Source: Paramesorhizobium salinisoli (GTDB lineage: Bacteria > Pseudomonadota > Alphaproteobacteria > Rhizobiales > Rhizobiaceae). Taken from it: a stretch of DNA of 64,000 nucleotides. Shown in pieces: positions 23,084-61,489 of this stretch. Location: NCBI RefSeq assembly GCF_003335045.1, contig NZ_QOZG01000004.1, positions 124,001-188,000 of the forward strand. Reading direction: 5' to 3'. The notes beneath the pieces were generated by a model, which was not told the origin of the DNA, ran no database searches, and was given only the letters and a program-made list of their open reading frames with translations. The first letter of the stretch is position 1, and each line of letters begins with the position of its first letter. The translations under genes were made by a program, and so were the position numbers.

Positions 23084-23243
23084 TTGGCGTACTGCACTTC
23101 ACGACAGGAGTAACACTTCCCCGGGGCCTTAATTGATCTCAAGGGAGCTGTCCCTGGAAAGGCCTGTGGGCTTTTTCATACGGCGCCCACCTACTTTGTA
23201 GGTTCCCGGGATCAATCTCTCCATCGGTTGTTGTGGTCGCCAC
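23084..23243 (+). ncRNA. ssrS: 6S RNA (regulator of RNA polymerase)
   Basis: It lies between zapA and fau, the classical site of 6S RNA. I can fold a closing stem: TTGGCG at 23084-23089 with CGCCA at 23238-23242, and CACGACA (23100-23106) with TGTTGTG (23229-23235), the latter with one G-U pair. Inside are GGCCTT/AAGGCC, AGGGA/TCCCT, TTGATC/GATCAA, GTGGGC/GCCCAC and the small CCTACTTTGTAGG hairpin. 6S RNA mimics an open promoter and holds housekeeping RNA polymerase in stationary phase. Ends are estimated to within about ten bases. Confidence 0.85.
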
Positions 23244-40273: not shown

Positions 40274-41470
40274 ATGATCATGCAGGCTCATTATAAGCGG
40301 GACACCCGCATCGACGTATTCAGGGCGCTGGCGCTTCTGACGATCTTCGTCAACCACGTTCCTGGTACGATCTACGAGCATCTGACCCACAAGAATCTGG
40401 GCTTCTCGGATGCTGCGGAGGCTTTCGTGCTCATTTCGGGTATCGCGGTCGGGCTTGCCTATGGGACAAAGTTTCAGCCGGGCAGCCGTCTTCTCATCGC
40501 GCTGAAGATGTGGCGGCGGGCCGGGGTTCTCTATACCACCCATATCATGACCACCATGGCGACGCTGGCCATCTTCTGCGGGACGGCGATCTTCCTCAAG
40601 CGCCCTGACTTCCTTTCGCAGATCAATATCGCGCCGGTCATGGATCGTCCGGTGGAGGCGCTTTTCGGTGTTTTCACGCTCGGCCATCAGCTCGGCTATA
40701 ACAACATCCTTTCGATGTATGCGGTGCTTCTGCTGATGACGCCGGCTTTCCTGCTTCTGGCGAGGATGAGCCTTTCGCTTATGGTCGGGGTTTCCGGCAT
40801 CCTCTGGCTTCTTGCAGGCATCTACCAGATCGCCCCTCATAATTACCCCGGGAACGGCTTCTGGTTCCTCAATCCGCTGTCATGGCAGTTCCTGTTCGTT
40901 ATCGGCATTGCGGGGACGCTCCATATGCGCCGGGGAGGCTCCATTCCGGCCAATGCCTGGCTGATCGGTGCGGCATCCGCCTATCTGATGCTTGCCTTTC
41001 TCTGGGTACGCCTGCCTTTGTGGGGCATCAATGTCTCGATGGGACTGCCAGCCGTGCTGACCGGCTTCGACAAGACATTCCTCTCTACGCCCCGGTTGCT
41101 GCATGTGCTGGCGCTGAGCTATGTGATCGTGGCTATACCGGCGATCTCGAATCTGGCACGTACCTCGCCCGACCATCCGCTGGCGATCCTCGGCAAGCAT
41201 TCGCTGCCGGTTTTCATCGTGGGCACGATCCTTTCGATGGCGGCGCAGGTGATGAAGCTCGTCAACCCCGGCGGCATACCTTATGATACGCTGCTGATCG
41301 CCACGGGTATCGTCGTGCAGTTCGCGCTGGCATATTATCTCGAATGGCTGCCGCGCATCGGCTGGAGTGGCAAGAGTGCGCCGAAGCCGGCTGTACCGGT
41401 TCCGGGTGTTTCCGCGCCGGTATCCGGCAATGATTTTCCTGTGGGCAAGCCGGTTTTCCAGCCGGCCTGA
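40274..41470 (+). CDS. OpgC-like acyltransferase (glucan succinylation)
   Basis: 398 residues with ten or so hydrophobic segments. N terminus DTRIDVFRALALLTIFVNHV fits the OpgC family, which is a membrane acyltransferase that adds succinyl groups to periplasmic glucans. Seen: GFSDAAEAFVLISGIAVGLA and NNILSMYAVLLLMTPAFLLL, SWQFLFVIGIAGTLHMRRGG. The C-terminal 35 residues are proline-rich (PKPAVPVPGVSAPVSGNDF). Brucellaceae make cyclic beta-glucans, so these are a plausible substrate. No opgG or opgH is adjacent. Start could be 40280 instead of 40274. Confidence 0.85.
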   Translation: MIMQAHYKRDTRIDVFRALALLTIFVNHVPGTIYEHLTHKNLGFSDAAEAFVLISGIAVGLAYGTKFQPGSRLLIALKMWRRAGVLYTTHIMTTMATLAIFCGTAIFLKRPDFLSQINIAPVMDRPVEALFGVFTLGHQLGYNNILSMYAVLLLMTPAFLLLARMSLSLMVGVSGILWLLAGIYQIAPHNYPGNGFWFLNPLSWQFLFVIGIAGTLHMRRGGSIPANAWLIGAASAYLMLAFLWVRLPLWGINVSMGLPAVLTGFDKTFLSTPRLLHVLALSYVIVAIPAISNLARTSPDHPLAILGKHSLPVFIVGTILSMAAQVMKLVNPGGIPYDTLLIATGIVVQFALAYYLEWLPRIGWSGKSAPKPAVPVPGVSAPVSGNDFPVGKPVFQPA

Positions 41471-41554
41471 GATGAAGCCTGCGACGGCTTTTGGTTGCCG
41501 GGCTGGTTTTTCGGGCCGGAATCGATGCGGATGGTTTGGAATTCCTTAACCGCG

Positions 41555-41570
41555 TTAACCATTCATTAAT
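41555..41570. promoter_or_regulatory. CtrA-type box ahead of candidate sRNA
   Basis: TTAACCATTCATTAAT matches TTAA-N7-TTAA, the CtrA operator of alphaproteobacteria. It lies about 10-25 bases before the likely start of the sRNA, where an activator would act. Confidence 0.6.
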
Positions 41571-41579
41571 GCTAGTTGC

Positions 41580-41688
41580 GTTAAATTCTCGTCATCCAGA
41601 TCTTCTGGATACTTACCGAGTGGTTTTGCCACTCTGTTTGACGCCTCCCTGTTAAACTCCTGAGAGCCGCCTATGCGGCTCTTTTTTT
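41580..41688 (+). ncRNA. Candidate small RNA with four hairpins and an anti-Shine-Dalgarno loop
   Basis: Four consecutive hairpins: ATCCAGA/TCTGGAT (41594-41610); GAGTGG/CCACTC (41618-41634); GTTTGAC/GTTAAAC with one G-U pair (41636-41657), whose eight-base loop is GCCTCCCT; and the terminator GAGCCGC/GCGGCTC plus T7 (41664-41688). A CCUCCC sequence in a loop could pair with ribosome sites, as in known alphaproteobacterial sRNA families. The 5' end is estimated. It lies between opgC and rcdA, with no ORF inside. Confidence 0.6.
41664..41688 (+). terminator. Intrinsic terminator of the candidate sRNA
   Basis: Seven-base stem GAGCCGC / GCGGCTC, four-base loop, followed by seven Ts. It is too far from the opgC stop (about 190 bases) to be its obvious terminator. 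Confidence 0.9.
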
Positions 41689-41719
41689 GTTCACAATTTT
41701 GTGGGGTTTGCGGATTGCG

Positions 41720-41736
41720 TTAACCCTTTCTTAAAC
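41720..41736. promoter_or_regulatory. CtrA-type box ahead of rcdA
   Basis: TTAACCCTTTCTTAAAC matches TTAA-N7-TTAA. It is about 170 bases upstream of the rcdA start. Regulation of rcdA by CtrA is known in Brucella. Confidence 0.65.
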
Positions 41737-41908
41737 ATATTCTTGCGCGACGGTGTATTGCGATGCAGTTTGCGGTGGAATTCATGGCATGGCCAGTATC
41801 GTCCGCCTCCGGTTCGTGATCGAAGCCGGGCAATGGCGGCGACAGCCCATTGGGCTTGATGACCATCTGTCATGAAAATAGCGGCGACGCGGGGTTGCGA
41901 AGAATACC

Positions 41909-42433
41909 ATGATCGAACATGAATTCCGGAACGACAATACCATTCGGTTGGCGGAACGCGTCCTTTTCTCCGATTCGTTCAAGCCCCTCTATAAGGAAGG
42001 CATGAGCCTCGTCGAGGAAGCTGCCGCCTATCTCGACGGCGCCGGTCGTGACGAGGCAAAATCCCTGTCGCGGACCGCAGCGACATTCTATGCCGCCGAG
42101 TCGATGCGCCTGACGACGCGTCTCATGCAGATCGCATCCTGGCTTCTTCTGCAGCGCGCCGCGCGCAGCGGAGAACTGACCCGCCAGCAGGTGGCGATGG
42201 AAAAGTCCAAGGTTCGCCTCGATATGCTTTCGGCAGCCGATGCATTGCCCGGCTGGACCGAGATGCCGGCAAGTTTCATCGACATCATCGAGCGTTCGTT
42301 GCGGCTGCAGGATCGCGTGCGGCGCATGGATGACGAGATCTACGGCGAACCGGCCGATTCGCCTGCTGTTGCGAACAGCAATCCGGTATCGGACCAGCTC
42401 GTGCTTTTGCAGACGGCTTTCGGCGGGCGTTGA
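41909..42433 (+). CDS. rcdA: RcdA, regulator of CtrA degradation (DUF1465)
   Basis: 174 residues. It matches the DUF1465/RcdA family with LAERVLFSDSFKPLYKEGMS, LVEEAAAYLDGAGRDEAKSL, AATFYAAESMRLTTRLMQIA and ASWLLLQRAARSGELTRQQV. RcdA is a helical-bundle adaptor that works with CpdR and PopA to bring CtrA to the ClpXP protease in Caulobacter. A CtrA-type box upstream suggests a feedback loop. The C terminus SDQLVLLQTAFGGR is variable in the family. It is followed by a terminator-like hairpin and ruvC. Confidence 0.93.
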   Translation: MIEHEFRNDNTIRLAERVLFSDSFKPLYKEGMSLVEEAAAYLDGAGRDEAKSLSRTAATFYAAESMRLTTRLMQIASWLLLQRAARSGELTRQQVAMEKSKVRLDMLSAADALPGWTEMPASFIDIIERSLRLQDRVRRMDDEIYGEPADSPAVANSNPVSDQLVLLQTAFGGR

Positions 42434-57793: not shown

Positions 57794-57809
57794 TTAAGCC
57801 AGACTTAAC
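57794..57809. promoter_or_regulatory. CtrA-type box ahead of first porin gene
   Basis: TTAAGCCAGACTTAAC is an exact TTAA-N7-TTAAC match, 80 bases before the start codon. In Brucella abortus, CtrA controls outer membrane protein genes including omp25. Confidence 0.7.
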
Positions 57810-57888
57810 TTTTCCCGTCTATTCCTAATGATCGAAGTTAGTGGGGTCAGGCGCGCCAAGCGCCAGCAAGTTCGATGGGAAAGCGACC

Positions 57889-58749
57889 ATGCAAAATCGA
57901 TCAAGAAATTTCATTGCTGGCGCGGTCTTTCTGGCCGCCGCTGGGGTCTCTCATTCAGCCTTTGCAGCTGATATAACGGAGCCGATGCCGGAGGCGCCAA
58001 TGATTCCGGAAGTGGCGGTTCCCGCCTCCATAGGCGGCTGGTACCTGCGCGGCGATGTCGGCTATTCCTGGGCCAAGTTCCGTGAGGCTTCCTATGCCAC
58101 CTCCGGCTGCGACGAATGCGGCGGCGGCGGCATTGGTGAAAACCAGCTCGACGGCGACCTGAAGGGCTCGTTCCTCATTGGCGGCGGCATCGGCTATCAG
58201 GTGACGGATTATTTCCGCACCGACCTGACGGTGGATTATTTGACCCGCTCCAAATTCTCGGGCGAGACGTTCGGAACCTGCACGTCAGGCGGCGTGGCGT
58301 TCGACTGCACGTCGACCGACAGCAGCAAGCTCTCGGCTCTATCAATTCTCGCCAATGCCTATGTCGATCTCGGCAATTTCAACGGCTTCACCCCCTATGT
58401 CGGCGCCGGTATCGGCGGCACGCGGGTCAAGTGGTCAGCCCTCGAAAACACAATCGGCGGCGATTTCGACCAGAGCGGTACCGAAACGCATGCTGGCGCG
58501 GCAAGCTGGCGCTTCACCTGGGCGCTCATGGCCGGCGTATCAGTCGATCTCACGCAAAATCTCAAGCTCGATGCCGGTTATCGCTATCGCCGGGTCGAAG
58601 GCGGCAACATGTTCGCCGGCAGTGAATTTGTCGGCAAGGGCTATGATGACGGCCTGTCGCTGCACGATGTCCGTGTCGGCCTGCGCTACCAGTTCGGCGG
58701 ACCGTCGACCGTGGCTTATGCGCCGGAGCCGCTGCCGGTCTACAAATAA
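57889..58749 (+). CDS. Outer membrane beta-barrel protein, Omp25/Omp31 family (copy 1)
   Basis: 286 residues. Signal peptide RNFIAGAVFLAAAGVSHSAF ending FAADITEP, then GGWYLRGDVGYSWAKF, the sequence that opens the barrel in this family. Alternating strands follow, ending with VRVGLRYQFGGPSTVAYAPE and the C-terminal EPLPVYK. It has a cysteine-rich loop (SGCDECGGGG; GTCTSGGVAFDCTS). It belongs to the outer membrane of Brucellaceae; members interact with host cells and heme. It is followed by a terminator and a paralogue. Confidence 0.9.
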   Translation: MQNRSRNFIAGAVFLAAAGVSHSAFAADITEPMPEAPMIPEVAVPASIGGWYLRGDVGYSWAKFREASYATSGCDECGGGGIGENQLDGDLKGSFLIGGGIGYQVTDYFRTDLTVDYLTRSKFSGETFGTCTSGGVAFDCTSTDSSKLSALSILANAYVDLGNFNGFTPYVGAGIGGTRVKWSALENTIGGDFDQSGTETHAGAASWRFTWALMAGVSVDLTQNLKLDAGYRYRRVEGGNMFAGSEFVGKGYDDGLSLHDVRVGLRYQFGGPSTVAYAPEPLPVYK

Positions 58750-58856: not shown

Positions 58857-58872
58857 TTAACGGCTGCTTAAG
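58857..58872. promoter_or_regulatory. CtrA-type box ahead of second porin gene
   Basis: TTAACGGCTGCTTAAG matches TTAA-N7-TTAA, 67 bases before the start codon, a position similar to that of the first porin gene box. Confidence 0.6.
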
Positions 58873-58938: not shown

Positions 58939-59835
58939 ATGACAAGCAAGAAGCAAATTCTGATAGCTGCGTTCTCCGGTCCGCTGATGGCAGGACTAGT
59001 AACAGGCGCGGCCTCTGCCGCCGACTACGCTCCGGTCTATGCCCAGCCCGAAGCTCCCGTCATCGTGGAGCAGGCCCCGATGCCTGTCGCATCAGGATGG
59101 TATCTGCGCGGCGATGTCGGCCATAGCTTCGATGCCAAGGGCGACGGAAGCTATGGCGTATGGGACGAGGGTAGCGGCACTTCCACCGAGTTCGACTACG
59201 ACGAGATCAAACTGCGCGGCAATACGGATTTCAGCGTCGGCGTCGGCTATCGCTTCAACCAGTATCTGCGGGCGGATGCGACGCTTGCCTATTGGAAGCG
59301 TGATGTCTTCGGTTCGAGCAGCGCATTCGGCGACACAGTCACATTCGATGACACATCGAAGGCAAGCGCCTGGGAAATGATGGCGAACGCCTATATCGAT
59401 CTCGTCACCTGGGGCAAGGTCACGCCTTATATCGGCGGTGGCCTGGGCTTCACGCGGGTCAAATACGGCACGATGAAGAATCGGTCCTGGTGCAATGTTG
59501 CAGGTCCCGGCTGTACAGATTATTGGGCCGACCACGGTGGGCTCACCTCAACCCGCTTTACCTGGGCGCTGATGGCCGGCATGACGGTAGACATCACCGC
59601 CAGCACCAAGTTCGATTTCGGCTATCGCTATTCCCACATCAAGGGCGGCAAGGCCTTTGGTTGGGATGCTTCCGATCTCGCCGCCGGTGCATCGGGAACG
59701 CAGGGCCGCGACGATGGCTTTGGCGTGCATCAGGTGCGCGCCGGCCTGCGCTACGAATTCGGCGGCCCACAGGCGGCCTATCAGCCGGAACCGCTGCCGG
59801 TTTATAATGAAGGCCCAGCGCCGGTTTATAAATAG
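58939..59835 (+). CDS. Outer membrane beta-barrel protein, Omp25/Omp31 family (copy 2)
   Basis: 298 residues. Signal peptide QILIAAFSGPLMAGLVTGAA (ending ASAADYAP), then ASGWYLRGDVGHSFDAKG opening the barrel, and a C-terminal VRAGLRYEFGGPQAAYQPEP ending PVYK. It is paralogous to the preceding gene in both ends of the barrel, while the loops differ greatly. Starts with ATG at 58939 after GGTGGGGAT. Confidence 0.9.
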   Translation: MTSKKQILIAAFSGPLMAGLVTGAASAADYAPVYAQPEAPVIVEQAPMPVASGWYLRGDVGHSFDAKGDGSYGVWDEGSGTSTEFDYDEIKLRGNTDFSVGVGYRFNQYLRADATLAYWKRDVFGSSSAFGDTVTFDDTSKASAWEMMANAYIDLVTWGKVTPYIGGGLGFTRVKYGTMKNRSWCNVAGPGCTDYWADHGGLTSTRFTWALMAGMTVDITASTKFDFGYRYSHIKGGKAFGWDASDLAAGASGTQGRDDGFGVHQVRAGLRYEFGGPQAAYQPEPLPVYNEGPAPVYK

Positions 59836-61430: not shown

Positions 61431-61436
61431 CCGCAG

Positions 61437-61484
61437 TGGGCCACCTTTCCCCAACGAAAGGCGTGCTATCTGAGAGGATAGGAG
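61437..61484 (+). ncRNA. serC leader motif
   Basis: Two hairpins: CCTTTC/GAAAGG (61444-61461) and CTATC/GATAG (61466-61481), the second ending in the GGAG ribosome site. This matches the alphaproteobacterial serC motif, a predicted cis-regulatory RNA preceding serC. The ligand, if any, is not established. Folding the second hairpin would sequester the start of the ribosome site. Confidence 0.72.
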
Positions 61485-61489
61485 AAAAC

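Follow-up and report, generated by a model that had tools for sequence, protein, structure and literature searches.

A conserved BjrC1505-family small RNA next to rcdA with a CtrA-type promoter box and an anti-Shine–Dalgarno-like loop

BjrC1505, catalogued by Rfam as family RF02356, was reportedly first described, and found expressed as a small RNA (sRNA), in Bradyrhizobium. Here we describe a member of this family in Paramesorhizobium salinisoli, in a 64,000-nucleotide (nt) stretch of contig NZ_QOZG01000004.1 (positions 124,001 to 188,000; hereafter the window, numbered from its first base). The RNA gene lies between opgC and a DUF1465 gene that we take to be rcdA, the gene of the CtrA-proteolysis adaptor. 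EcpR1 (PMC4414408), GspR (PMC5928217) and CcnA (PMC8959179) are known cell-cycle sRNAs, and repression through an anti-Shine–Dalgarno (anti-SD) motif has been proven for AbcR1/2 (PMC8844928). For RF02356, the accessible sections of the non-subscription literature that we searched contained no published function and no link of the RNA to CtrA or rcdA; BjrC1505 appeared only in a list and RF02356 nowhere. Relative to that literature, a CtrA-type promoter and a linkage to rcdA are new, whereas the RNA family itself was already known.

The window RNA matched RF02356 with 75.4 bits (gathering cut-off 50) over positions 1–140 of the 140-position model, and it has the hairpin order, loop and terminator of BjrC1505. 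It is a member of this catalogued family and is single-copy in the host genome. The original prediction had left undecided whether the RNA belonged to a known family, for example alpha-r14, or to a new one; the family is known, it is not alpha-r14 and it is not new. Alpha-r14 (ar14) was absent among the seven Rfam matches up to E 10 in 41480–41760, and we rejected membership in it; SorX (RF02784) was absent from the matches of this stretch as well. MmgR/suhB (RF00519, alpha-r8) has in common with our RNA a module of CUCCCU plus terminator, but membership was rejected at 25.7 bits on the window RNA, below the cut-off of 41, and the host carries a separate RF00519 gene (L352, 63.3 bits).

RF02356 was widespread at E ≤0.001, with matches in 245 of 297 genomes of the order, 230 of 297 of the family and 30 of 289 of the class, and in 0 of 14 control genomes; a plasmid collection gave no match. 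A transcript-only model, R1, matched 21 of 30 family genomes picked for weak or absent RF02356 matches, several of them lacking any earlier RF02356 match, and seven of the nine family genomes without an R1 match are smaller than 3 Mb. We dropped the R1 prevalence in the class (123/289 genomes, E ≤0.01) because an RF00519 gene scored above cut-off in 8 of the 16 regions fetched around R1 matches. One class-level genome carries tandem copies of the RNA (L367:26-130 and 223-329, on G791:C10; 47.5 and 59.1 bits with R1), with a sub-threshold SorX match over each copy and a weak RcdA match downstream; the SorX match overlapping the BjrC1505-like RNA in this locus reached 38.5 bits against a cut-off of 46.6.

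Three described systems resemble this locus in part. CcnA of Caulobacter also carries a CtrA box in its promoter, and its C-rich loop binds G-rich sites, but, compared by description and not by sequence, it is 182 nt long, lies at the replication origin and has the loop CCCC (PMC8959179). EcpR1 of Sinorhizobium meliloti, an sRNA conserved in rhizobia, acts on cell-cycle mRNAs; identity with it was rejected because its loop, UCCGCCGCAUCU, and its locus, downstream of divK-pleD, differ (PMC4414408). AbcR1/2 and NfeR1 likewise carry anti-SD motifs in loops and target transporter mRNAs, but their motif is CUCCUCCC, their genes are others and their control is by LsrB and RpoH1 (PMC8844928).

Conservation was measured on 198 core loci out of 209, 11 having been dropped for want of a recognisable core within six substitutions. 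Removing rows whose upstream stretch was short or that shared at least 80% identity with a kept row gave 138 non-redundant loci, from which 65 (alignment A1) and 59 sequences (A2, without the six divergent A1 rows L080, L083, L087, L178, L198 and L209) were chosen for diversity. Among the 198 core loci, 120 were among the matches listed for an exact core pattern. Their loop is invariant by construction because this pattern was used to find them, and we therefore counted loop conservation only in loci found by a model.

The four consecutive hairpins that had been predicted, the last of them a terminator with seven Ts, are present at 41594–41688 on the forward strand (Table 1). The 95-nt RNA folds to −39.3 kcal/mol, compared with −17.1 ± 3.0 kcal/mol in 200 shuffles (z −7.43; 0/200 as low). 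When folding was begun at 41551 instead, the upstream part paired with the loop hairpin, hairpin 3, and disrupted it; the position of the RNA start therefore matters. The stems, whose absence from relatives had been named in advance as a refutation, are conserved. Both-side changes occurred in 18 of 27 pairs of the whole structure across the 65 members, and 0 of 500 shuffles had as many; hairpins 1 and 2 and the terminator contributed such changes in 16 of 20 pairs, and the terminator is 95–99% paired in relatives.

What is kept of hairpin 3 is its sequence and not the seven-base stem. In the window it does present an eight-base loop, GCCUCCCU, on a seven-base stem, as had been described, with one G–U pair among the seven. 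In relatives, its two outermost pairs failed in 29 and 31 of 65 members, with one compensatory change each, and its five-pair core showed one-side changes only, so that the compensatory changes sought there by the original prediction did not materialise. The loop stretch TTGACGCCTCCCTGT was exact in 73 of 78 model-found loci. A mechanical open reading frame (ORF) of 54 codons with a TTG start (41491–41655, forward strand) overlaps the RNA, contrary to the earlier statement that none covers it; within the 59 aligned transcripts, the longest closed frames have only 0–21 codons and are unequal in length.

Two further observations concern the hairpins. CTCCT, a second possible anti-SD motif, lies within or close to the loop of hairpin 2 at 118 of 198 loci (L002–L209); the window has TTTTG. 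In a divergent branch in the family (L332, L333, L335–L350), the terminator, CUCCCUGU and all or most of the CtrA box are retained, but hairpin 2 is a different one, mostly with ends like CAGAC...GTCTG. Two of four tested members of this branch gave RF02356 scores, 40.6 and 40.2 bits, under the cut-off of 50.

CtrA-activated promoters, as known from work in Caulobacter, carry the CtrA box at the −35 region. The TTAA-N7-TTAA box that had been noted before the likely 5′ end of the RNA is exact in the window, which has four such sites against 0.07 expected, and it is conserved at a fixed place in relatives. Within the upstream 70 nt, 72 of the 138 non-redundant loci have an exact box and 133 have one with at most one mismatch, compared with 1.2 and 15.3 in shuffles, and nine other half-site spacings gave only 1–5 exact sites each. 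Because the Rfam model includes the box stretch and could bias the loci it found, we split the locus set by discovery route; loci found by the downstream core pattern alone had the box exactly in 35 of 78 cases and within one mismatch in 74 of 78. In 20 further divergent family loci (L331–L350), the box was exact in 14, had one mismatch in four and two mismatches in two. By contrast, the suhB/MmgR loci picked up by R1, which served as an internal negative control, had 3–4 mismatches in 8 of 8.

Alignment of 131 loci on the box revealed nearly fixed half-sites, a mostly free spacer and an A/T-rich element at +26 to +30. The best stem found by our script began at box +38 or +39 in 67 of the 131 loci, the remainder including loci in which another stem was chosen; among 80 loci with a TCCAG arm, the distance from box to hairpin 1 was 38–40 nt in 73. 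We presume from this layout that the stretch is a promoter with its start at the first base of hairpin 1, which would place the box at the −35 region. Its position and conservation suggest that CtrA would activate, rather than repress, the sRNA. The bases that follow the box, +15 to +20 (41570–41575 in the window), are conserved beyond the CtrA consensus as GCTTTC in the 131 loci, T occupying +18 in 82% and +19 in 88% of them; the window itself deviates from GCTTTC.

The same layout bears on the 5′ end of the Rfam model, in which helices cover the first ~43 nt. Across the 65 members these helices had no covariation support and were paired in 41.7% of cells, family-wide, compared with 41.2% in shuffles. 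Because the promoter layout is conserved and the Rfam helices there are unsupported, we interpret the initial ~43 nt of RF02356 as what looks like promoter DNA with a CtrA box, not RNA, and as a probable flaw in the 5′ end of the model.

Table 1 Features of the window, by position from its first base
Feature	Position	Strand	Remark
Presumed mature sRNA, 95 nt, RF02356 family	41594–41688	+	Rfam match itself 41551–41688; start predicted from promoter geometry
Hairpin 1 (ATCCAG/CTGGAT)	41594–41610	+	Both-side changes in 6/6 pairs, 65 members
Hairpin 2 (GAGTGG/CCACTC)	41618–41634	+	Both-side changes in 5/6 pairs, 65 members
Hairpin 3, GTTTGAC-GCCTCCCT-GTTAAAC, anti-SD-like seed	41636–41657	+	Loop 41643–41650; TTGACGCCTCCCTGT exact in 73/78
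Intrinsic terminator, seven Ts	41662–41688 (hairpin 41662–41683, T to 41688)	+	95.2% of cells paired; both-side changes in 5/8 pairs
CtrA box TTAACCATTCATTAA, TTAA-N7-TTAA, presumed sRNA promoter positions −39 to −25	41555–41569	+	Exact site
Presumed −10 element TTAAAT	41581–41586	+	A/T-rich conserved columns, box +26 to +30, 131 loci
opgC (PF10129)	40274–41470	+	Stop 84 nt upstream of the box
rcdA (DUF1465, PF07323), conserved neighbour	41909–42433	+	Pfam E 3.2e-54
Second CtrA box, between terminator and rcdA	41720–41734	+	Exact site
6S RNA	23086–23242		RF00013, 73.3 bits, above cut-off
serC leader	61434–61486		RF00517, 64.8 bits, above cut-off

Taken with the covarying stems, the conservation of box and loop supports the core of the original prediction, a CtrA-linked sRNA with an anti-SD-like loop. 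We consider it probable that the RNA is a free-standing, trans-acting, CtrA-activated sRNA of ~95 nt whose C-rich loop blocks ribosome-binding sites. CtrA would bind the box, centred near −32, and activate the promoter; RNA polymerase would transcribe hairpins 1–3 and halt at the terminator, short of rcdA. The loop, near-invariant in sequence (UUGACGCCUCCCUGU), would then pair, possibly with the help of Hfq, with ribosome-binding sites of the AGGGAGG type and lower the translation of several mRNAs, which in the genus plausibly include that of a sugar-uptake substrate-binding protein.

The loop is complementary to AGGGAGG, and complementary sites before ATG exist. The host genome contains 15 matches to AGGGAGGC-N-ATG (control 5) and 22 to CAGGGAGG-N-ATG (control 7), in lists that share sites; the proteins encoded after these sites (uptake, thiG-like, acyl-CoA dehydrogenase-like) were labelled by eye from their translations. 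AACAGGGAGG-N-ATG occurs 12 times in six genus genomes, and four of these matches, in four genomes, stand before one and the same binding protein of 417–418 amino acids, which AACAGGGAGGCAAGTCATG precedes in four of the six. These matches make anti-SD repression by the loop plausible. A search with the 17-base complement, allowing up to three mismatches, found 12 places, one of them the sRNA itself, against 3 + 2 in the reversed control, and gave no clear target.

Several results weigh against a CtrA-activated sRNA acting through its loop. The 11-base site was found in 77 of 199 family genomes and was tied to no single gene, several of the matches being the antisense of the sRNA itself, and gcrA has no GGGAGG site upstream. 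Shine–Dalgarno sites of the AGGGAGG type are common, and the loop may therefore have few or many targets. As to the promoter, the box carries two mismatches in two of the 20 divergent loci, and a simple sigma-70 consensus scan found 0 promoters here, compared with 0.4 in shuffles, the consensus being that of E. coli. The same simple scan for terminators gave one match against 0.9 in shuffles; with matches about as frequent as in shuffled sequence, these scans alone prove nothing and the case therefore rests on conservation.

The gene order around the RNA is itself conserved. RcdA is encoded downstream on the same strand at 177 of the 198 core loci, or 177 of the 190 that could be evaluated; of the others, eight were too short, 12 had at least 900 nt and no RcdA (ten of these viewed for 1.56 kilobases (kb) only) and one had RcdA on the opposite strand. 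These counts, like those for OpgC, include duplicates, some genomes being in both collections. RcdA was also downstream in 20 of 20 further divergent family loci (L331–L350), and outside the order it was patchier (10 of 18 class-sample core loci, with 1.5-kb flanks).

Such synteny, with a median of ~168 nt from terminator to rcdA, is what would be expected if the RNA were instead the terminated leader of rcdA, transcribed from the CtrA box, with regulated read-through setting the RcdA level. CtrA would then drive its own degradation factor, and the short RNA would be a by-product or also active. Most loci, moreover, have no second CtrA box before rcdA (exact in 23/123 loci, against 0.1 in shuffles; within one mismatch in 40/123). 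We nevertheless regard a leader as unlikely. The terminator is paired almost throughout the relatives, the loop is near-invariant although a leader would not need it, 12 of the loci show no RcdA in the stretch viewed, as described above, and the divergent members carry their own exact second box before rcdA in 19 of 20 loci. Although CtrA binds upstream of rcdA in S. meliloti, rcdA was unchanged on CtrA depletion (PMC4433202); a CtrA motif has also been reported ahead of the rcdA start site (PMC3616915).

The RNA could also be an ordinary housekeeping sRNA, with TTAA-N7-TTAA a mere A/T-rich −35 region unrelated to CtrA. The box does overlap the expected −35 region, and GCTTT after it is conserved too, so other factors may bind there. 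An A/T-rich −35 region, however, would hardly account for an enrichment confined to the spacing of seven (72 exact sites against 1–5 for each of nine other spacings), for spacer bases that are mostly free or for the lack of the box at the related suhB/MmgR loci, and we find this explanation improbable. That the RNA is the 3′ untranslated region (UTR) of opgC released by processing, the outcome that the original prediction had named as fatal to it, is extremely improbable: opgC ends close upstream on the same strand and SorX, which weakly matches one relative, is 3′ UTR-derived in R. sphaeroides (PMC9438474), but OpgC was found at 9 of 198 loci and the promoter-like box is retained where opgC is absent.

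Elsewhere in the window, two more exact TTAA-N7-TTAA boxes (57794–57808 and 58857–58871) each lie upstream of an ORF (57841–58749 and 58939–59835) that by eye resembles an outer-membrane beta-barrel protein. These two ORFs are candidate CtrA targets.

Through the rcdA linkage and the widely conserved CtrA box, RF02356, until now an orphan, gains a probable regulator, a probable start site and a setting in the cell cycle. Beyond this locus, we lean slightly towards the view that the free-standing RNA is an ancient CtrA-activated sRNA wired to rcdA across Hyphomicrobiales and further Alphaproteobacteria, such that a pulse of CtrA would yield both a translation-damping RNA and the adaptor that removes CtrA. 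If so, the 5′ third of RF02356 would need to be re-annotated as a promoter, and the cell-cycle circuit would include the sRNA as a hitherto unrecognised component. It would also explain how CtrA can bind at S. meliloti rcdA without an effect on rcdA: provided that S. meliloti has an RF02356 RNA, the transcript that responds there may be the sRNA.
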